Translations under genes and position numbers: made by a program
Shown: positions 16,631 through 25,214 of the stretch, one piece after another
Layout of the letters: each line of letters begins with the position of its first letter
Numbering within the stretch: the first letter of the stretch is position 1
From: Mycolicibacterium boenickei
GTDB lineage: Bacteria; Actinomycetota; Actinomycetes; Mycobacteriales; Mycobacteriaceae
Reading direction: 5' to 3'
Assembly: GCF_010731295.1 (NCBI RefSeq)
Contig: NZ_AP022579.1
Span: 1,612,001 to 1,676,000 of the forward strand
DNA length: 64,000 nucleotides
Notes under the pieces: generated by a model
The model's input: only the letters and a program-made list of their open reading frames with translations
Told to the model about the DNA's origin: nothing
Database searches by the model: none

Positions 16631-16651
16631 GTGGTGCGGTCACCGCACCAC
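16631..16651. terminator. Terminator hairpin between lpqI and the decarboxylase gene
   Basis: GTGGTGCGG (16631-16639) pairs perfectly with CCGCACCAC (16643-16651) around a TCA loop that is itself the minus-strand stop codon of the decarboxylase. It can act on both convergent transcripts. Confidence 0.6.
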
Positions 16652-18094
16652 GGTGACGACGTCGAGCCGCGGATCCGACGCACTGATCGGGTTGCCTGCC
16701 TCGCGCAGCGCCTGCAACAGCGTGATGACGTCGGCGGTGAGCCGTTCGCCGGGCATCACCAAGGGGATTCCCGGTGGGTAGGGCGTGATGGCTTCGGCCG
16801 CGATGCGGTCGGTGGCCCGGACTGACGGCACGGTCTCGGTGTCGGCGAAGAAGGCTTCCCGCGGGGTCAGCACCGTCTCGGCGCGATGTGCGAGCAGGTC
16901 GGCGATCAGGGTGCCGTCGTGGGCCGATTTCGCGGTCGCCTCCCCGGCCCAGGCGGCCACCTCGGCGAATCCGTCGACCAACCTATCCATGTCGGCGTCG
17001 GTGTTGCCGATGGTGCTGATGCACAACACATGGCCGGCGCCGCTGAGTTCGGGCTGCACGCCGTGCAGTTTGTTGAGGCGGGCGACGATGTCGCGGGCGT
17101 CGGCCGCCAGATCACGCGTCCCGATCAGCAACTTGGTCTCGTCGAGCTGATGGAACCCCGTGCCGGGTCCGATGGCATCCGCAGGCCGCAGCACCCGCAG
17201 GCCCCTGATGGTCGCCAACCTGGCCGCCGCCCGGCGAGCCCGGTCCAGTGCGGCACCGAGGAGCTCGTTGCCCTGGGTCATCATCTGCCGGCGGGCCAGG
17301 TCGATCGAGGCCATGATCGCGAAATGCGGGCTCGTGGTCTGGATGAGCTGCAGCGACCGCCGGACCGTCACCGGGTCCAGGGCGGCCGGGTCGACGTGCA
17401 GGACGGCGGCCTGGCTCAGGCCCGACAGGACCTTGTGCACCGATTGCACGGTGGCCACCGCGCCGGACTGTTCGGCGGCCACCGGAAGTTCGGGGTGGAA
17501 CGCGAAATGCGGGGAGTGCGCGCCGTCGACCAGCAGGCGCGCCCCGGCGCGGCGGCACATCTCGGCCAGCGCCGCGATGTCGGCGGTGGTGCCGTAATAC
17601 GTCGGGTGCAGCGCCCACAAGGCCTTGGCCCGGCTTGCGGCCAAAGCCTTTTCGACCACGTCGGCATCCAGTCCGTGTGCGATGCCGAACCGAGGATCCC
17701 AGCGGGGCTCGAGCCAGACCGGGCGCGCACCCACCTGCACGAGTCCGGCGAGCACCGACTTGTGCGCATTGCGCTGAACCAGCACGGGTTCACCCGGGCG
17801 CAGTGCCGAGAGTGCGACGGCGATGTTCCCACCGGTCGATCCCTGCACCAGGATGAAGCTCTGCCCGACGCCCCAGGCGTCGGCGATCAGCTGCTCGGCG
17901 GCGAGGATCGGACCCTCGGGGCAGTGCAGGGTGTCGGTGTCGGGCAGGTTGTTCAGGTCGATAGCCGCGATGTGATCGCGAAACCAGGGATCGAGGGTGC
18001 GCCCACCCTTGTGGCCGGGACTGTACAGCGGCGCCTGGTCGCGTTCGACGAATGCCCGCAGTGCCTCCAAAAGCGGTGCGGCGTCATGGTTCAC
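16640..18094 (-). CDS. PLP-dependent Orn/Lys/Arg decarboxylase-family protein
   Basis: The 484-residue fold-type I PLP enzyme of the Orn/Lys/Arg decarboxylase family (shorter, YaaO/SpeA-like form) has PLYSPGHKGG near the N-terminus, LVQGSTGGN, LLVDGAHSPHF, and the PLP-lysine motif SVHKVLSGLSQ. A small C-terminal decarboxylase domain ends LDVVTVVR. Members convert basic amino acids to polyamines such as cadaverine, putrescine or agmatine. The GTG at 18094 overlaps the amidohydrolase stop as GTGA; an in-frame extension further upstream runs through the amidohydrolase gene and is rejected. It is the last gene of the leftward operon with permease, aminotransferase and GS-like ligase, so it may supply or process the amine of that pathway. 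Confidence 0.87.
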   Translation of the reverse strand: MNHDAAPLLEALRAFVERDQAPLYSPGHKGGRTLDPWFRDHIAAIDLNNLPDTDTLHCPEGPILAAEQLIADAWGVGQSFILVQGSTGGNIAVALSALRPGEPVLVQRNAHKSVLAGLVQVGARPVWLEPRWDPRFGIAHGLDADVVEKALAASRAKALWALHPTYYGTTADIAALAEMCRRAGARLLVDGAHSPHFAFHPELPVAAEQSGAVATVQSVHKVLSGLSQAAVLHVDPAALDPVTVRRSLQLIQTTSPHFAIMASIDLARRQMMTQGNELLGAALDRARRAAARLATIRGLRVLRPADAIGPGTGFHQLDETKLLIGTRDLAADARDIVARLNKLHGVQPELSGAGHVLCISTIGNTDADMDRLVDGFAEVAAWAGEATAKSAHDGTLIADLLAHRAETVLTPREAFFADTETVPSVRATDRIAAEAITPYPPGIPLVMPGERLTADVITLLQALREAGNPISASDPRLDVVTVVR

Positions 18095-19275
18095 AGCGAG
18101 TAGACCCGTTCGGCGTTGCGCACGCCGATCATGTCGACGATGCGGATCGCGTCGGCCTCGCTGCAGTCCCCGGCCCGGACCCACTCGCCCAGCGTCAGCC
18201 CCATCGTGCGGCGCCACAACACCGAACCCAGCAGGTGCAGCTCGGGTGGGCCGAAGGCGTCCGAGGAGTACAGCTGTTTGGCGAACGGAGCGGTCTCGAG
18301 TGCCTCGGCGACCACCGCGTTCGAGCGGGCCCCGAGGTAGTTGATGGCAAGGCCGACATCGAAATTCACGTGGTCGAAGGCCTGGGCCAGGTAACCGGCC
18401 TGGCGGTGGAACGGATAGCAGTGCAGCAGCAGCACCGGCACCGGCGCCATGGTGCGCAGCAACGGCAGCAGCAGCATCGGGTCGGTGCGGTGCAGATCCA
18501 GATCGCGGTCGCCGAACCCGACGTGGACCTGGATGGGCAGCCCATGGTCGGCGGCCTCGTGCACACCGAACGCGATCAGCACGGGGCTGTCCACCCGTTG
18601 TGAGTCCCTGGCGCTCAGGTCCCGGGCATGCTCGATCACCTGCTGCTCGGTGGGACGGGACCAGTCGATGTCGAACGACGTGCGATAGGCCGCAATCGTC
18701 TTGGTACCCACGATGTCCCGGGAGCCCACGGCGTCCGCCAGCGCGGACCGGAATGCGCCGGGAAACGCCTCCGGACTGGTGCCGGACTCGAGGAGGTCCT
18801 GCGCCAGCTGCTCCAGACGCAAGATTTCCGAGGACGGACGGCCGCTGAGTTCGGTCAGTCGTTGCGGGGTGGTGATGAGATCGCCCTGGAATCCGGTGTC
18901 GACGATCCAGCGTTGGACCCCGGCCGGTGGCAGCATCAGCGCCGCCAGCTCGTCCGGGGTGTGTTCGTTGCGGCGTTGCCAGTAGGTGTCGGCGTCGGCG
19001 TGGGTGGGCAGGCCGAGAACCGGTGCGCACCAACGCCGGATCGACAAGCCGAGCGGTGAGTCGAACTGCGTCATGAAATCCGGTATCGGGTCGGTGGACC
19101 CTTCGTTGATCGATGCTTCGAAGCCGGCCCGGTCGACGGGCTTGTGGAACGTTCCGTGCACGTGGTGGTCGATCAACCGGATCGTGTGCAGATGCTCGGC
19201 GAGCGCGTCGGGCACCAGGTGGTGGACCCCGTCGAACACGTAGATCATCGGGCCGGTGATGTCACCATCCGGCAT
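18091..19275 (-). CDS. Amidohydrolase related to the N-terminal half of FluG
   Basis: The 394-residue TIM-barrel amidohydrolase (amidohydrolase-2 superfamily) has IRLIDHHVHGTF with the metal-binding His pair, then IQVHVGFGD, LLHCYPFH and LYSSDAF with the late Asp. In fungal and some bacterial FluG proteins such a domain is fused to a glutamine-synthetase-like domain; here the two occur as separate genes in one operon. The role proposed for the family is hydrolysis of gamma-glutamyl or related amides; the specific substrate is unknown. The ATG at 19275 overlaps the aminotransferase stop by 14 bp; an alternative start at 19248 would avoid overlap. The 3' end overlaps the decarboxylase start (GTGA). 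Confidence 0.8.
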   Translation of the reverse strand: MPDGDITGPMIYVFDGVHHLVPDALAEHLHTIRLIDHHVHGTFHKPVDRAGFEASINEGSTDPIPDFMTQFDSPLGLSIRRWCAPVLGLPTHADADTYWQRRNEHTPDELAALMLPPAGVQRWIVDTGFQGDLITTPQRLTELSGRPSSEILRLEQLAQDLLESGTSPEAFPGAFRSALADAVGSRDIVGTKTIAAYRTSFDIDWSRPTEQQVIEHARDLSARDSQRVDSPVLIAFGVHEAADHGLPIQVHVGFGDRDLDLHRTDPMLLLPLLRTMAPVPVLLLHCYPFHRQAGYLAQAFDHVNFDVGLAINYLGARSNAVVAEALETAPFAKQLYSSDAFGPPELHLLGSVLWRRTMGLTLGEWVRAGDCSEADAIRIVDMIGVRNAERVYSL

Positions 19276-20557
19276 AGCGCGCAACCTCCTCGGCATCGAC
19301 CTTCCCTGTCATGGCGTCTGCGATGGCCGCGCCGATGATCTCGGCGGCGCGGTGCGCCTCGTCCTCGGACAGCACGAGTGGCGGGGTGATCTCCAGAACG
19401 TTGCCGCCGACGTAGTACACCACCGCACCGAGTTGCCAGGCCCGGTAACTCACCTGTGCCGCGAGTCGGGAGTCGGGTTCGCCGGTCGCCGGGTCGACGA
19501 GTTCCAGGCCGATCGCCAGACCGCGGCCCCGCACGTCACCGACTTGTTCGGTATCCACGGCCCGCAGTGCATCCTGCAGTACCGCACCGACTTTGGCGGC
19601 CCGCTCGGGCAGCTGCTCGCCCGTGATGGTCGCCAGCACCGCCCGGCCGGCCGCGGTGCAGATCGGATTGCCCGCGGTGGTCAGCAAGGCCGAGGCGGCC
19701 GGTTCGTCGAGCAGGTCGGCCGGGCCGACCGCTGCCGACAGCGGCAGACCCCCACCCAGCACCTTGCCGAACGTGACGATGTCGGGCACCACACCGTCGT
19801 GCTCGAACGCGTGCAGGGTGCCCGGCCTGCCCAGGCCCATCTTGACCTCATCGCAGATCATCGGCACAGCGTGGCGCCGGCACAGGGCATGGAGCTCGGC
19901 CAGGAAGCCGTCCGGCGGGACCACGAGGCCACCGTCGGACAGGATCGGTTCGACGATCAGACACGCGATCGCGCCCGTGGCCAGGTGATGGTCGGCCAGC
20001 TTCAGGCAGGCCGCGACGTCGGCGGCGACATCACCTGATGCGGGCCGGAATGGGTTGGGGTACGGCAGGAAAACTGCGTCGGGATCCGGTGCGACGCCGG
20101 CGTCGACGTGGACTCCGGAGACTCCCATCGCGACGCCAACGCCACCGTGATAGCTGTGCTCGAACGCCAGCACCGTCCACCGCCCGCTGGCGTGACGGCA
20201 GGCGCGCAACGCGACGTCGTTGGCGTCGGATCCGGCATGGCCGAGGTAGACCCTGCGCTCACCGGATCCGGGGACCAGCTCCAGCAGATCCTCGGCCAGC
20301 CCCACCGAGTCAGGATGCACCGCCGACAGACCGCCGGAACCCGGCGCGTTGCGCACGGCCCGGCTGACGGCCTCGACGACCGCGGGATGCCCGTGTCCGA
20401 GACCGGATGCCGTCCAGGTGGCCGACAGGTCGAGCAGTTCCCGGCCGTCGGGTGCGACCAGTGTGCAGCCGTGGCCGGAGACGACCTCCAGCGGGAAGAA
20501 CCGGAGCTTCTCGATCCCGGCGACGGCGGCCGCGTCGCGGGCGTAGAGCGTGTTCAC
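19262..20557 (-). CDS. Class III PLP-dependent aminotransferase
   Basis: The 431-residue class III (omega-amino acid/acetylornithine) aminotransferase has the PLP-phosphate loop region LGHAGSDANDVALR, Asp in MICDEVKMGLGRPG and the PLP-Lys in VTFGKVLGGGLP. Such enzymes remove the terminal amino group of diamines, gamma-aminobutyrate or gamma-glutamylated diamines. The GTG start (20557) overlaps the permease stop in a GTGA, and its end overlaps the amidohydrolase start. In context it resembles the PuuE/SpuC step of polyamine utilisation. Confidence 0.88.
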   Translation of the reverse strand: MNTLYARDAAAVAGIEKLRFFPLEVVSGHGCTLVAPDGRELLDLSATWTASGLGHGHPAVVEAVSRAVRNAPGSGGLSAVHPDSVGLAEDLLELVPGSGERRVYLGHAGSDANDVALRACRHASGRWTVLAFEHSYHGGVGVAMGVSGVHVDAGVAPDPDAVFLPYPNPFRPASGDVAADVAACLKLADHHLATGAIACLIVEPILSDGGLVVPPDGFLAELHALCRRHAVPMICDEVKMGLGRPGTLHAFEHDGVVPDIVTFGKVLGGGLPLSAAVGPADLLDEPAASALLTTAGNPICTAAGRAVLATITGEQLPERAAKVGAVLQDALRAVDTEQVGDVRGRGLAIGLELVDPATGEPDSRLAAQVSYRAWQLGAVVYYVGGNVLEITPPLVLSEDEAHRAAEIIGAAIADAMTGKVDAEEVARYAGW

Positions 20558-22047
20558 CGGACCTCCACGGGTGGCGTCAGCGCCAGCTCGGCGGTCAGCG
20601 ATTCACCCACCCGCTTGGCGATACCCGAGGCGGCCAGCGCGATCACCAGGCCGACCGCGCACCAGTACAGCCCCAACAACGGTGCTGCGGTCCAGGTTTG
20701 GGCGTCCTTCACGTTGAACCACAAGACCACGGCGATCACCACGGCGCCCAGTAGCGGCAACGCGAGGCCGAGCACCTTGCCCTGGCCGCCGTGCACCCCG
20801 ACGAACCTGGGTGCGCCGACGAACCACGCGGCGGCGATCTCGACCAGCAGGTAGCACACCATCAGGCAGACCGAACCGGCCACCGCGAACAGGAAGTACG
20901 TGTCGATCGCGTCGTTGCCGGTACCCATGTCCGGCCAGTCGAGCAGGCCACAGATCACGTCCACCACCAGAGCCAGTCCGACCACCAGCCAGGTGGCGCG
21001 GCGCGGACCGCCGGTGGCCTCATGGATGTGCGCCAGCGACTTCGGACCGAAGCCGTCACGACCGAACGCGAACAGCATGCGGCCCGAGGTCGCCGCGGTC
21101 GCCATGTGGCAGCCGAACGCGGCGACGGTCGCGGTGAAGATGATGAGCAGCGAGAACCACTGGCCGATGTAGCTGCTGCCCAAGTCTCCCAAGGTGTTTC
21201 CCGAACCCTGGAATGCGGCCAGGCCGGCCTCGTCGGTGCCGAAGCCGATCACCTGGGCGAACATCACGACGACGAACAGCACGCCGGTGAGGATCAACGT
21301 TCCGCCCAGCGCCCGCGGGATGTTGCGGCCGGGGTTGTCGGTCTCTTCGCCCATCGACGCGCATGCCTCGAAGCCGGCCCACGACAGGAACGCCGCGACC
21401 ACACCGCTGAGGACTGCCGAAGGCGATACGCCACTGCCGGAGAAGGAGAACACGCTGAAGTCGAATCCGGTCGTCGGGGCACCGCCTTTCGCGAAGATCG
21501 CGACGACCAGCACGATCATGGCCACGATGCCGATGCCTTCGATGCCGAGCAGGATCTTGGCCAGCACCCTGATGTCGCGACCCGCCAGGGCGAACGAGAT
21601 GGCCGCGCCGATCACCACGATGACGAGCCACGGCACCTGGTAGGGGTTGTCGTTGCCCGGTTGCAGCTGTGCGATGAACGCGTTGGTGAAGGCCGCTGTC
21701 AGCGCGAGGGTTCCGATCGAGAACCCGACGTAGGCGCCGAGCATCGCGAAGCCGGAGAAGAACCCGGTGCGTGGGCCCACGGTGCCGCCGACGAGCGCGT
21801 AGGCGGAACCGGCGTGGTTGAGGTGACGGGTGAGCCGGACGAAGCTGTAGCCGACCAGCGAGACGCCGATCAGGCCGATCAGGAAGACCAACGGGATGGC
21901 CTTGCCCACAGTGCCGATCAGGCCCTGCCCGTTCCCGGACATCGCCAGCGTGGGGCCGACCGTCGCGACCGACAACGCCAGCGCCACCCAGAACGGTAGG
22001 CGTCGGTGGGGTAGTTGATCGGGGTCGGCAGCGGCACTGGTTGTCAT
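20554..22047 (-). CDS. APC-superfamily amino acid/amine permease
   Basis: The 497-residue protein has 12 predicted membrane helices and the APC first-helix pattern VATVGPTLAMSGNGQG, followed by LTRHLNHAGSAYALVGGTVG and SWAGFEACASMGEETDNPGRNIPRALG, the typical helix 6/loop region. It imports amino acids or amines in symport with protons. The short gap (25 bp) downstream of the GS-like gene and the GTGA overlap with the aminotransferase place it in the operon, where it would bring in the amine to be glutamylated. Confidence 0.88.
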   Translation of the reverse strand: MTTSAAADPDQLPHRRLPFWVALALSVATVGPTLAMSGNGQGLIGTVGKAIPLVFLIGLIGVSLVGYSFVRLTRHLNHAGSAYALVGGTVGPRTGFFSGFAMLGAYVGFSIGTLALTAAFTNAFIAQLQPGNDNPYQVPWLVIVVIGAAISFALAGRDIRVLAKILLGIEGIGIVAMIVLVVAIFAKGGAPTTGFDFSVFSFSGSGVSPSAVLSGVVAAFLSWAGFEACASMGEETDNPGRNIPRALGGTLILTGVLFVVVMFAQVIGFGTDEAGLAAFQGSGNTLGDLGSSYIGQWFSLLIIFTATVAAFGCHMATAATSGRMLFAFGRDGFGPKSLAHIHEATGGPRRATWLVVGLALVVDVICGLLDWPDMGTGNDAIDTYFLFAVAGSVCLMVCYLLVEIAAAWFVGAPRFVGVHGGQGKVLGLALPLLGAVVIAVVLWFNVKDAQTWTAAPLLGLYWCAVGLVIALAASGIAKRVGESLTAELALTPPVEVR

Positions 22048-22072
22048 CGATGCTCCCTTCGGGAATGAGCGG

Positions 22073-23392
22073 TCAGCAACTCCAGGCCAGGCGCAGTGCC
22101 TGGCAGGCTTCGGCGAGCGGGCGGTCGCCGTAGGTGGTGAGCTCGTGGCGGCGCACGGCCACGAGTCCCTGGATGACGGCCGGTGTTAGCAGATCCGCGG
22201 CCAGCGAGGAGGATTCGAGCGTTTCGATCACCGCGCGGTGATCGGTGGGCAGGGGTTGCGAGGCGGTGGCGGCGGGATCGTCGGTGACCTCGGACGGCAA
22301 CGGGAGGGCCTTGTCGATCCCACGCAACGCGCTGCCGAGAAGTGCCGCGGCCGCCAGGTACGGGTTGGCGCTCGGGTCGATGATCTTCAGTTCGACGTTG
22401 GCGCCGTGTGGATTCCCCGGTGTCGCGGCGACGAAGCGCACCGCGGCTTCGCGATTCTCCAGGCCCCAGCATTTGGTGGCGCCGGCCCAGTTGCCGGGTT
22501 TGAGGCGGGCCGCCGAGAGCGTCGAGCCAGCGTACACCCCGAGCAGATCCGGCAGTCCGTCGAGTACTCCGGCGATGGCGGATTGTCCCGTGTCGCGCAT
22601 GCCGTGCGGGCCGGTGCCGCCGGACAGCAGTGGGCCGTCGACATCGGCCAGGGACAGGTGCAGGTGGGAACCGTTGCCGGCCTCGCCTTCGAACGGGACC
22701 GGGGAGAACGAGACCTTCAGTCCGTGCCGGGTGGCCACCCGGCCGATCACGATCCGGGCCAGGATGACGCTGTCGGCGACGGCCACGGGCGTGGCCGGGG
22801 CCAGTGACACCTCGACCTGGTCATGGCCGTATTCGGTGTGCAGCTGCTCGATCTCGAGTCCGGCCATCTCGGCCGCGAGCGCGAGGTCGACCAGGAATCC
22901 GGAGCGGTCGAGCGAGGTCCGCATGCCGTACGGCGACCAGGGATCGGTGCTGGCGTGGCCACCCTCGTCCGAGAGCAGGGTGAACTCCAGCTCGGCCCCG
23001 GCCAGCGCGGTCAGCCCGCGATCGGCCGCGGAGCGTTCGATGTCGCTCAGCAGGGACCGGGTGCACAGCGGCGCCGGGTTGCCGTGCTGGTCGTGCAGGC
23101 TGGCGGGTGCCCAGGCCACGCCGTCGTCGATCAGGCGCAGATCGTCGGGATTGATGCGGATCCGCAGGTCGCCCACCACGCCGATGTCGGGGGTGAAGGC
23201 GATGCCGCTGTCCACACAGAACACGCTCCATGACGGCGACACGCCCATGCCTGACTTCTCGAACGCGGAAAGTCGCTGCAGAGGAACATATTTGGCCCGA
23301 GTTACGCCGGCCAGGTCGGTCAGTGATCCAGCCACGATCTCGACACCGTGTGCGCGCAGATCCTCGGTGCGTGACGTGTTGGCTCCCGGCAT
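22073..23392 (-). CDS. Glutamine-synthetase-like gamma-glutamyl-amine ligase
   Basis: The 439-residue GS-I-fold protein has the metal/ATP motifs AELEFTLL, GEAGNGSHLHLSL, RLKPGNWAG...WGLENREAAVR and IDPSANPYLA. It lacks the C-terminal adenylylation-site sequence of assimilatory GlnA, and its ammonium-site region is divergent. Together with its neighbours this points to a ligase joining glutamate to an organic amine (PuuA, GlnA3 or GlnA4 type), not to ammonia. AGGAGGG lies 5 nt upstream of the ATG. It is the first gene of the five-gene leftward operon and diverges from the class II amidotransferase gene; a 15-bp perfect palindrome lies in the shared promoter region. Confidence 0.85.
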   Translation of the reverse strand: MPGANTSRTEDLRAHGVEIVAGSLTDLAGVTRAKYVPLQRLSAFEKSGMGVSPSWSVFCVDSGIAFTPDIGVVGDLRIRINPDDLRLIDDGVAWAPASLHDQHGNPAPLCTRSLLSDIERSAADRGLTALAGAELEFTLLSDEGGHASTDPWSPYGMRTSLDRSGFLVDLALAAEMAGLEIEQLHTEYGHDQVEVSLAPATPVAVADSVILARIVIGRVATRHGLKVSFSPVPFEGEAGNGSHLHLSLADVDGPLLSGGTGPHGMRDTGQSAIAGVLDGLPDLLGVYAGSTLSAARLKPGNWAGATKCWGLENREAAVRFVAATPGNPHGANVELKIIDPSANPYLAAAALLGSALRGIDKALPLPSEVTDDPAATASQPLPTDHRAVIETLESSSLAADLLTPAVIQGLVAVRRHELTTYGDRPLAEACQALRLAWSC

Positions 23393-23460
23393 AAGTCCCT
23401 CCTGATGTGCTGACTCTCCGCGTACGCTATGTCATGAATGTTTCAGAATCTTTAATATCG

Positions 23461-23475
23461 TCGATCTAAGATCGA
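23461..23475. promoter_or_regulatory. Candidate RpiR operator (15-bp palindrome)
   Basis: TCGATCTAAGATCGA is a perfect palindrome centred on A23468 in the 128-bp region between the divergent GS-like and amidotransferase genes. It is the obvious candidate site for the RpiR regulator encoded in the cluster. The rest of the gap is unusually AT-rich (around 23430-23490), consistent with back-to-back promoters. Confidence 0.55.
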
Positions 23476-23520
23476 TTTGTTAGATTTTGGCTGCAGGTCC
23501 CGAGACGGAGGGCGGAATCC

Positions 23521-24318
23521 ATGTGCCGACTGCTGGGTGTGGTGTCAGCACAGCCGATAACCGTCTCCGACGCGGTCGGGGCGCACGTCCTGAAGGATTT
23601 CGTGGCCCTGACCAAGGTGCACGGCGACGGCTGGGGCATTGCCCGGATCGAGCAGGCCGGGCAGGCTCCGACCGCCGAGGTGTCCCCCGGCAGCGCACTC
23701 GACGACCCGGCCTTCGCGGCCGCGGTGTCCGGCCCGGCCGCGCTGGCCAGCGTGGTCCACCTGCGCTGGGCCACCAACGGCCTGGCGGTCCGGCCGCAGA
23801 ACTCGCACCCGTTCGTGGCCGACGGAATTGCCATGGCGCACAACGGTTCCATCAAACCCGCCGGCCCGCTCGACGAGCTGCTGGATCCGGACATCGCGAT
23901 GTCGCTGCGCGGCACCACGGACAGTGAGCGCTACTTCGGCATCATCCGCAGGCACCGCCGCACCGCGCCGGATCTGGCGGAAGCGGTCCGCCGGGCGGTG
24001 GCGCAACTGCGGCCGCTCTACCCGGAAGCCAGTCTCAACGCGCTGATCCTCGGCGAGGGGCAGTTGATCGCCGTACACGCCCACGCGCACAGTTATCTGC
24101 CGGACGAGGACGTCGAGGAGATCACCGCGGCCGATCTGCCCACCGAACACCTTGAGGACTACTTCGCCCTGCGGTGGGCCAGACCTGCGGACGGCACGCT
24201 CGTCATCGGTTCGACCGGCTTCGGCGACCTGGACTGGCAGCCGTTACCGCCGGAGAGCGTCACCGCGATTTCCATGAGCGACTTGTCGATGACTTCGGTA
24301 CCGGTCATGGCACATTGA
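23521..24318 (+). CDS. Class II glutamine amidotransferase / gamma-glutamyl hydrolase (EgtC-like)
   Basis: The 265-residue Ntn-hydrolase begins MCRLLGVVS, so Cys2 becomes the N-terminal nucleophile after Met removal. Conserved motifs follow: HGDGWGIAR, VHLRWATNG (Arg and Asn contacts for glutamine), NSHPFVADGIAMAHNGSI and GTTDSERYFGII. The family includes EgtC, which hydrolyses a gamma-glutamyl amide in ergothioneine synthesis. Here no ergothioneine genes are adjacent; instead it faces the GS-like ligase, so it may release glutamate from the gamma-glutamylated product (the PuuD role by another fold; inference). The stop TGA overlaps or nearly touches the RpiR start. Confidence 0.85.
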   Translation: MCRLLGVVSAQPITVSDAVGAHVLKDFVALTKVHGDGWGIARIEQAGQAPTAEVSPGSALDDPAFAAAVSGPAALASVVHLRWATNGLAVRPQNSHPFVADGIAMAHNGSIKPAGPLDELLDPDIAMSLRGTTDSERYFGIIRRHRRTAPDLAEAVRRAVAQLRPLYPEASLNALILGEGQLIAVHAHAHSYLPDEDVEEITAADLPTEHLEDYFALRWARPADGTLVIGSTGFGDLDWQPLPPESVTAISMSDLSMTSVPVMAH

Positions 24319-24323
24319 GCATC

Positions 24324-25214
24324 GTGGCCCACGAACCCGCACCAGCCGCACAGGCGGCGTCGGGCGCGCAGACGGTGGAGGCCCGCACCACCGCGGCGCT
24401 CCCGACGCTGAGCAAAGCCGAACGCCGGGTCGGACGGGCGTTGCTCGCCGACTATCCGAGCGCCGGGTTGGCGAGTGCGGCCCGGCTCGCGGAGCGGGCC
24501 GAGGTGAGCCCCCCGACCGTGCTGCGCTTCGCGCAGTCTCTGGGATTCGACGGCTTCGCCGATCTGCAGGTCACGTTGCGTGCCGAGCTGTCGAGCCGAT
24601 CCAGCGGACCGATCAATCGGTTGCCGGACGCACCGCCTGCCGGCGGCCTCTTGGAGCGTCTGCTGCAGCAGGCCCAGGCGCAGACCGACCAGGCCGCCCA
24701 GACGCTGGCGATGCTTCCCGAATCCGCCCTCGAGGCTGCTGTCGCGCTGTTGGCCGACACCAGCCGCACCGTGTACCTGCACGGCGGCCGCTTCTCGCAT
24801 CTGCTGGCCCTGCACCTGGCGGCGCATCTCGAACAATTGCGACCCAGGGTGCGGGCGCTCGGCGACCCCACCGGAGGTGATCTCGGCGCGCTGCTCGAGC
24901 TGTCTCGCAGCGACGTGGTGGTGCTGTTCGACTACCACCGTTACCAGCGCAGTGCGGCGGAGCTGGCGCAGCGGGTACATCGCGCCGGGGCCACCGTGCT
25001 GCTCATCACCGACGATCTGGCCTGTCCGGTGGCGCCGGAGGCCGAGGTGGTGCTGGCTGCATCGAGCACCGTCGGCACCGTGTACCAGAGCATGGCGGCC
25101 GGATTTCTGATCACCGAACTGCTGATCCCGTTGGTGATGGATGCGATCGGGGAGTCCGCGCGGACCCGGATGGCGCTGTGGGAGGAGCAGCGGCGCACTG
25201 AGCTGCTGCCCTGA
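24324..25214 (+). CDS. RpiR-family transcriptional regulator with SIS domain
   Basis: The approximately 296-residue protein has an N-terminal RpiR helix-turn-helix (TLSKAERRVGRALLADYPSA, LAERAEVSPPTVLRFAQSLG; residues about 25-85) and a C-terminal SIS sugar-isomerase-like ligand domain (VYLHGGRFSHLLA, VVVLFDYHRYQRSAAELA, VLLITDD). RpiR proteins sense phosphorylated sugars or, in some amine and purine catabolic clusters, other metabolites. The start is GTG at 24324; a TTG at 24315 overlapping the previous stop (TTGA) is the alternative. It is cotranscribed with the amidotransferase and likely controls the divergent operon. Confidence 0.85.
   Translation: MAHEPAPAAQAASGAQTVEARTTAALPTLSKAERRVGRALLADYPSAGLASAARLAERAEVSPPTVLRFAQSLGFDGFADLQVTLRAELSSRSSGPINRLPDAPPAGGLLERLLQQAQAQTDQAAQTLAMLPESALEAAVALLADTSRTVYLHGGRFSHLLALHLAAHLEQLRPRVRALGDPTGGDLGALLELSRSDVVVLFDYHRYQRSAAELAQRVHRAGATVLLITDDLACPVAPEAEVVLAASSTVGTVYQSMAAGFLITELLIPLVMDAIGESARTRMALWEEQRRTELLP

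Follow-up and report, generated by a model that had tools for sequence, protein, structure and literature searches.

In a 64,000-nt window of the Mycolicibacterium boenickei genome (NZ_AP022579.1), a seven-gene cluster contains a gene annotated as a class III aminotransferase, here called AT, whose sequence places its product firmly in the caprolactam/amino-acid-amide racemase family. Genes of this family lie close to genes for glutamine synthetase (GS)-like ligases in other microbes as well, and a partnership between the two is well supported by the clusters compared. Among gamma-glutamylation operons, the M. boenickei cluster is a conserved variant that has a racemase at the place where a first-pass annotation of the same DNA had assumed an aminotransferase. 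Coordinates without a locus name are positions in the window, the whole stretch of DNA analyzed, and all Pfam domains named for the seven genes exceed their curated cut-offs.

The enzyme annotated as an aminotransferase

The AT gene (19262–20557, minus strand; PF00202, 268.8 bits) encodes a protein whose best solved relatives are 5m49 (414 bits, 49.4% identity), 2zuk (407 bits), and 6gio (402 bits), followed by other racemases at no more than 243 bits and a gamma-aminobutyrate aminotransferase at 218 bits. 2zuk is the alpha-amino-epsilon-caprolactam racemase of Achromobacter obae and 6gio an amino acid amide racemase; 5m49 was deposited under the name aminotransferase class-III, and we take it to be a caprolactam racemase from a rhizobium. 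Eight residues of 5m49 (L19, W49, L78, Y137, D210, K241, K267, and E396) are kept in AT and in all 37 orthologues compared, a set made up of 35 mycobacterial sequences, one from Pseudarthrobacter (locus L056), and one from genome G054 (L081). Presumably, D210 and K241 are catalytic, K267 binds pyridoxal phosphate (PLP), and W49 and Y137 belong to the pocket. The PDB chains 5m4b and 5m4d, as read from the alignments, are altered at D210 and K241, respectively, which supports the roles presumed for these two residues, and 2zuk has the same motifs as AT when aligned with it. Also in the pocket are L19 and L78, which the accessible part of PMC7431475 identifies as specificity positions. Among 12 other cluster members, D210, K241, K267, and E396 are present in all 12 and the whole eight-residue set in 10, the exceptions being the Haladaptatus enzyme, with Ile at 19 and 78, and the G054 row, which begins too late to cover 19. 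Neither D210 nor K241 occurs in any of the 15 other class III paralogues of the M. boenickei genome.

At the column of the 2-oxoglutarate-binding Arg, AT and all 37 orthologues have Glu. Only 6 of the 15 M. boenickei paralogues have Arg there (Glu occurs in one doubtful row, own_L122), so the lack of Arg does not by itself exclude a transaminase. In the phylogenetic tree, AT and the cluster members form a 19-row clade in which 5m49 is nested (support 96/92), and none of the 15 paralogues falls within this clade. The chain 5m49 adjoins the Shinella zoogloeoides enzyme, to which it is 84.8% identical and whose gene lies in an operon with the order RpiR, hydrolase, GS, hydrolase, and racemase. 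Residues, tree position, and best solved relatives all speak for the racemase family instead of the class III aminotransferase originally called, and labels of this kind in such operons mislead pathway reconstruction.

Racemase-family genes and their partner ligases

The GS-like gene of the cluster (22073–23392, minus strand; PF00120, 228.1 bits) retains Glu, His, and Arg residues from the active site of GS. In place of GS Glu327, the ammonium residue, it carries Trp (35 of 35 mycobacterial orthologues); gamma-glutamyl ligases have lost the Glu327 residue, according to the portion of PMC6478659 available to us. Its best solved relative is 4HPP, and its match to the PuuA-type model NF045547 reaches 197.7 bits against a cut-off of 650. 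In the tree it is sister to GlnA3 (support 96/93), sharing 46% identity with the GlnA3 of its own genome, and it groups with ligases of Pseudarthrobacter and Arthrobacter. At the level of sequence, these comparisons show a GlnA3-type gamma-glutamyl ligase, a type reported to act on diamines and polyamines in the accessible parts of PMC5403932 and PMC11841054.

Relatives of the racemase were found in 85 plasmid records, 45 of them from Klebsiella, and 14 records were read: Pluralibacter, Klebsiella oxytoca, Pantoea, two Shinella, Sinorhizobium meliloti, S. medicae, two Ensifer, Rhizobium, Ciceribacter, Maritalea, Sulfitobacter, and Haladaptatus. Together with clusters from Pseudarthrobacter (L056) and genomes G264 (L097) and G247 (L098), these made 17 further clusters; that of G054 (L081) was left out because the contig breaks off within AT. 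In all 17, the racemase-family gene has a GS-like gene no more than 10 kb away. The chance of a GS gene in a 21-kb stretch is about 2.5%, judged from the 8 GS-family genes in the 6.59 Mb of the M. boenickei genome, and the 17 clusters are not independent, several coming from rhizobial kin. An RpiR gene is present in 15 clusters and was not found in that of Haladaptatus or in that of G247, where the contig ends nearby. The partner ligases are spread over no fewer than three regions of the GS tree. As hydrolases, all 13 proteobacterial clusters have an N-formylglutamate-amidohydrolase-like gene together with an isochorismatase-like gene, the actinobacterial clusters a FluG-type amidohydrolase (AMH), M20, or class II glutamine amidotransferase (GATase) gene, the last of these lying beside racemase and GS genes in L098, and the Haladaptatus cluster M20 and amidohydrolase genes.

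The module was seen on plasmids of Klebsiella, Pluralibacter, and Pantoea (L100, 6588–13290; L101; L132). On the Pluralibacter plasmid, ectoine-transport genes and insertion sequences lie near it, with arsenic-resistance genes on the other side. The Haladaptatus plasmid (L107, 4242–14100) carries a racemase-family gene, APC permease genes, an M20 gene, and a GS-like gene; a second class III gene of this locus lacks the racemase residues. Some genes were split in two pieces, such as an RpiR gene (L131, 2106–3001) and a racemase gene (L133, 8986–10304).

The seven-gene set and its hydrolases

In the window, the seven genes lie between genes that we take to be homologues of lpqI and Rv0238, and their positions and named Pfam domains agree with the first-pass annotation. 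On the minus strand, the ligase gene is followed by an APC-family permease gene (20554–22047; PF13520, 119.4 bits), AT, the AMH gene (18091–19275; 394 aa, with its ATG set at 19275 because of the lengths of its nearest relatives), and a gene for an Orn/Lys/Arg-type PLP decarboxylase (16640–18094; 484 aa; PF01276, 193.8 bits; PF03711, 48.5 bits), whose GTG start overlaps the AMH stop. Coupling by overlap, which had been proposed for all of these genes, applies to three of the four junctions (4, 14, and 4 nt), whereas the GS and APC genes are separated by a 25-nt gap. On the plus strand lie genes for a class II (N-terminal nucleophile, Ntn) glutamine-amidotransferase-like amidase (GAT; 23521–24318; PF13230, 46.8 bits) and a MurR/RpiR-family regulator (about 24324–25214, start codon uncertain; PF01418, 51.8 bits; PF01380, 44 bits). 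The divergent promoter region between the GAT and GS genes (23393–23520) contains TGAAACA (23439–23445, minus strand), which is constant across the window and 34 loci (35 of 35 sequences) and fits the proposal that the genes form one regulated unit; in the regions of other clusters looked at, it was seen in one only (L099). The palindrome TCGATCTTAGATCGA in the window promoter was rejected as an operator, occurring only in the window and L017, and G+C content, at 68.8% for the cluster against 68.6% and 66.9% for its flanks, gave no signal of recent transfer.

GAT keeps its N-terminal Cys and the HLRWAT, HNG, and TDSE motifs in the 34 orthologues compared, and we assume these motifs to be those that bind the gamma-glutamyl group in GlmS. 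It had been called an EgtC-type hydrolase, a name that its TIGR03442 match (50.6 bits against a cut-off of 218.65) does not sustain; the EgtC of the same genome scores 295.4 bits and is encoded at another place.

The seven-gene set is conserved but patchy. A neighborhood search in relatives with AMH as the query returned 52 loci, 47 of them with AMH at 55% identity or more and 38 of these with enough flank. Of the 38 loci, 29 contain all seven genes, arranged and oriented as in the window; AMH, as the query, is present in every locus by construction. The nearest named relatives are Mycolicibacterium porcinum and M. septicum. Of the complete sets, 13 are flanked by lpqI and a TetR gene and 16 lie elsewhere, and comparison of their flanks gave 8 left groups and 6 right groups, with at least six flanking settings. 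When AT was the query, it was found in 28 of 198 genomes of the genus, all of which also have a close AMH; the two genes are at most 100 bp apart in 26 of them, and in the remaining two they are on separate contigs (G660) or the AT match is partial (G702). In a sample of the class, AMH lies next to AT in two of the three other genomes with AT. Smaller sets also occur. Cluster-type AMH stands alone next to lpqI, with the other six genes missing, in L020 (9950–11167), L024, and L052; two Arthrobacter-group loci (L057 and L058) have GS and AMH only, and the Pseudarthrobacter locus reads GS-APC-AT-AMH. In L050 and L061, the APC gene runs straight into the AMH region, with all cluster genes but the racemase present.

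The six presumed metal ligands of AMH are invariant. A fold search with its model (predicted local distance difference test, pLDDT, 92.6) gave 2QPX as the nearest structure, followed by uronate isomerases; 2QPX is a relative of the N-terminal half of FluG (PMC6478659, as far as accessible), and no reaction can be deduced from this fold because 2QPX is itself of unknown function. Among the 198 genomes of the genus, 36 have a cluster-type AMH (72–100% identity), 102 have only another type (best match 40–56% identity), and 60 have none (no match at 1e-40); both types occur together in two genomes (G758 and G690). We searched for GlnA3 in the 35 cluster-type genomes other than M. boenickei and in 20 genomes each from the 102 and the 60, and found it in 31 of 35, 20 of 20, and, intact, 4 of 20, respectively, with a fifth AMH-less genome having GlnA3 in two pieces (G680:C1:680927-682271). 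Fisher values for these analyses are 5.9e-11 and 2.1e-9, figures that ignore genome kinship and genome selection. Gene content thus shows that, in the genus sample, AMH accompanies GlnA3-type ligases; the four genomes that have intact GlnA3 but no AMH speak against a strict rule. GlnA3 adjoins AMH in 20 of 20 other-type genomes and in 0 of 31 cluster-type genomes, the GlnA3 of M. boenickei itself (L124) has no AMH beside it, and all eight genomes with cluster-type AMH and no AT have GlnA3. The AMH of the cluster therefore seems to stand in for the missing neighbor of GlnA3, and FluG-type AMH is tied to GlnA3 ligases by this genome-wide complementarity. In Streptomyces, the AMH partner of GlnA3, SCO6961, is described in the accessible part of PMC5403932 as polyamine-induced and as a predicted hydrolase; the association of AMH with GlnA3 favors a similar role for AMH, acting on gamma-glutamyl products.

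As in M. moriokaense (L060), bacterioferritin- and MFS-like genes precede GlnA3 in M. boenickei (L124, 6299–7657). In the M. boenickei locus the AMH slot is gone, and a short open frame follows that appears by eye to be of glyoxalase type. In M. moriokaense, two leftward D-aminoacylase-like genes, one of which was scanned (PF07969), lie beside the GlnA3-AMH pair (L060, 11126–15140).

Predicted pathway and relation to known systems

Both Orn/Lys/Arg domains are present in the window decarboxylase, and its PLP-lysine motif SVHK and TPYPPGIPLVMPGE are kept in the 33 orthologues compared. Its closest solved chains are lysine decarboxylases, at 113 bits only, and named equivalogs match far below cut-off. 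Other members of its family, at 30–39% identity, are common, occurring in 83 of the 296 genomes of the class sample, M. boenickei included. In G054, AT and AMH are followed by a PLP decarboxylase of group II (PF00282), for which L-2,4-diaminobutyrate decarboxylase is the top NCBIfam hit (215.7 bits, under the cut-off of 900). In genome G068, a GS-like gene diverges from APC, AMH, M20, and Orn/Lys/Arg decarboxylase genes, without AT. The occurrence of two unrelated decarboxylases of diamino-acid type in the same company suggests a diamino acid as the amino acid being processed, and lactams of diamino acids are the namesake substrates of the racemase family.

We tentatively read the M. boenickei cluster as a salvage operon under RpiR control that handles amides or lactams of basic (diamino) acids, with a substrate, an order of steps, and hydrolase roles that we infer. 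The permease would bring in an alpha-amino amide or lactam such as alpha-amino-epsilon-caprolactam (lysine lactam) or ornithine lactam; the racemase would convert the D enantiomer to the L enantiomer; an amidase would open the amide or lactam to give the L-diamino acid; the decarboxylase would turn this into a diamine; and the ligase would gamma-glutamylate the amine for detoxification or onward catabolism, after which AMH, the class II amidase, or both would take off the glutamyl group. Either hydrolase may open the amide while the other removes glutamate, and glutamylation could precede amide opening. Slightly more plausible to us, if still short of probable, is the broader proposal of a widespread catabolic module, partly carried on plasmids, in which RpiR controls an amide/lactam racemase coupled to a gamma-glutamyl ligase and the amide hydrolases can be exchanged. 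Such a module would give the caprolactam racemases, so far known as industrial enzymes, their role in nature, and in its mycobacterial form racemic lactams of diamino acids would end up as gamma-glutamyl diamines.

Several observations weigh against the reading as a salvage operon. Two otherwise kept clusters, L050 and L061, have no racemase gene, and L032 has no decarboxylase, so each of the two is dispensable. No decarboxylase of these types is present among the annotated or searched genes of the 13 proteobacterial clusters. The racemase family is rare, with 4 of 296 genomes in the class sample, M. boenickei included, and a search of 396 genomes of a phylum sample found it in M. boenickei only. 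AMH-GlnA3 pairs also occur without racemase or decarboxylase, and AMH may be a remover of glutamate only, which would leave the mycobacterial set without a dedicated amide opener.

The scheme drawn in the first-pass annotation, in which a diamine is imported, glutamylated, transaminated at its free amine by the class III enzyme, and deglutamylated, draws on the place of the ligase in the gamma-glutamylpolyamine group and on the polyamine-induced predicted hydrolase that partners GlnA3 in Streptomyces (PMC5403932, accessible part). We regard it as unlikely, with the class III enzyme bearing racemase residues, Glu standing in the 2-oxoglutarate Arg column, and no aldehyde dehydrogenase among the seven genes, although the Arg column is not decisive given its state in the paralogues. 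As a whole, that interpretation is partly supported.

D-Isoglutamine, being a D-amino-acid alpha-amide, counts for peptidoglycan salvage, in which the racemase would act on wall-released D-isoglutamine or amidated diaminopimelate together with lpqI and the MurR-type regulator. The gene lpqI, linked to peptidoglycan recycling (PMC6572805), neighbors the cluster here and the 13 complete sets mentioned above. The idea is weakened because the other 16 of 29 sets lie elsewhere, in at least five other settings, and no wall genes were found in the stretches read of the Klebsiella, rhizobial, and Haladaptatus clusters; we consider it improbable. Equally improbable is a detoxification of aminolactones or thiolactones (homoserine lactone, homocysteine thiolactone) by racemization, amine glutamylation, and ring opening, which gains from the exchange of the alpha-proton of homocysteine thiolactone by a caprolactam racemase (PMC11391342, accessible part) and leaves the diamino-acid decarboxylases of the mycobacterial, G054, and G068 clusters without a role.

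For the salvage operon that we favor, no published account of the same gene combination was found among the papers listed in the literature searches, most subscription papers lying outside their reach. The nearest known arrangement is the GlnA3-AMH pair (SCO6962-SCO6961; Rv1878-Rv1879), which shares the ligase group and the AMH family; the cluster differs in having a permease and a racemase between the two and in the added decarboxylase, class II amidase, and RpiR regulator. Aspergillus FluG likewise has an AMH half and a GS-like half, in one fused polypeptide, whereas the cluster, whose AMH has the metal ligands expected of such a half, has two separate, non-adjacent genes. The earlier description of a split FluG is accurate as to these separate halves and not as to novelty, such pairs having been published for Streptomyces (PMC5403932, accessible part). 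With the Escherichia coli Puu pathway, the cluster would share amine gamma-glutamylation, a permease, and a deglutamylation step. It is not a plain Puu pathway, as had been recognized: equivalents of PuuB, PuuC, PuuD, a transaminase, or an aldehyde dehydrogenase are not among its seven genes, and its ligase falls well short of the PuuA-type cut-off.

Caprolactam racemase has long been used in amino-acid manufacture, and the accessible parts of PMC7431475 and PMC6061476 name no natural substrate or pathway for it. The recurrent partnership with a ligase, a permease, and amide hydrolases makes its natural role a testable question. AT resembles the known caprolactam (2ZUK, 5M46 series) and amide (6GIO) racemases in its 49% identity to 5m49, in its catalytic and pocket residues, and in belonging to one clade with them; those enzymes are described, in the sources as far as accessible, as biocatalysts, whereas AT, whose activity is predicted, shares its operon with the gene for a gamma-glutamyl ligase.

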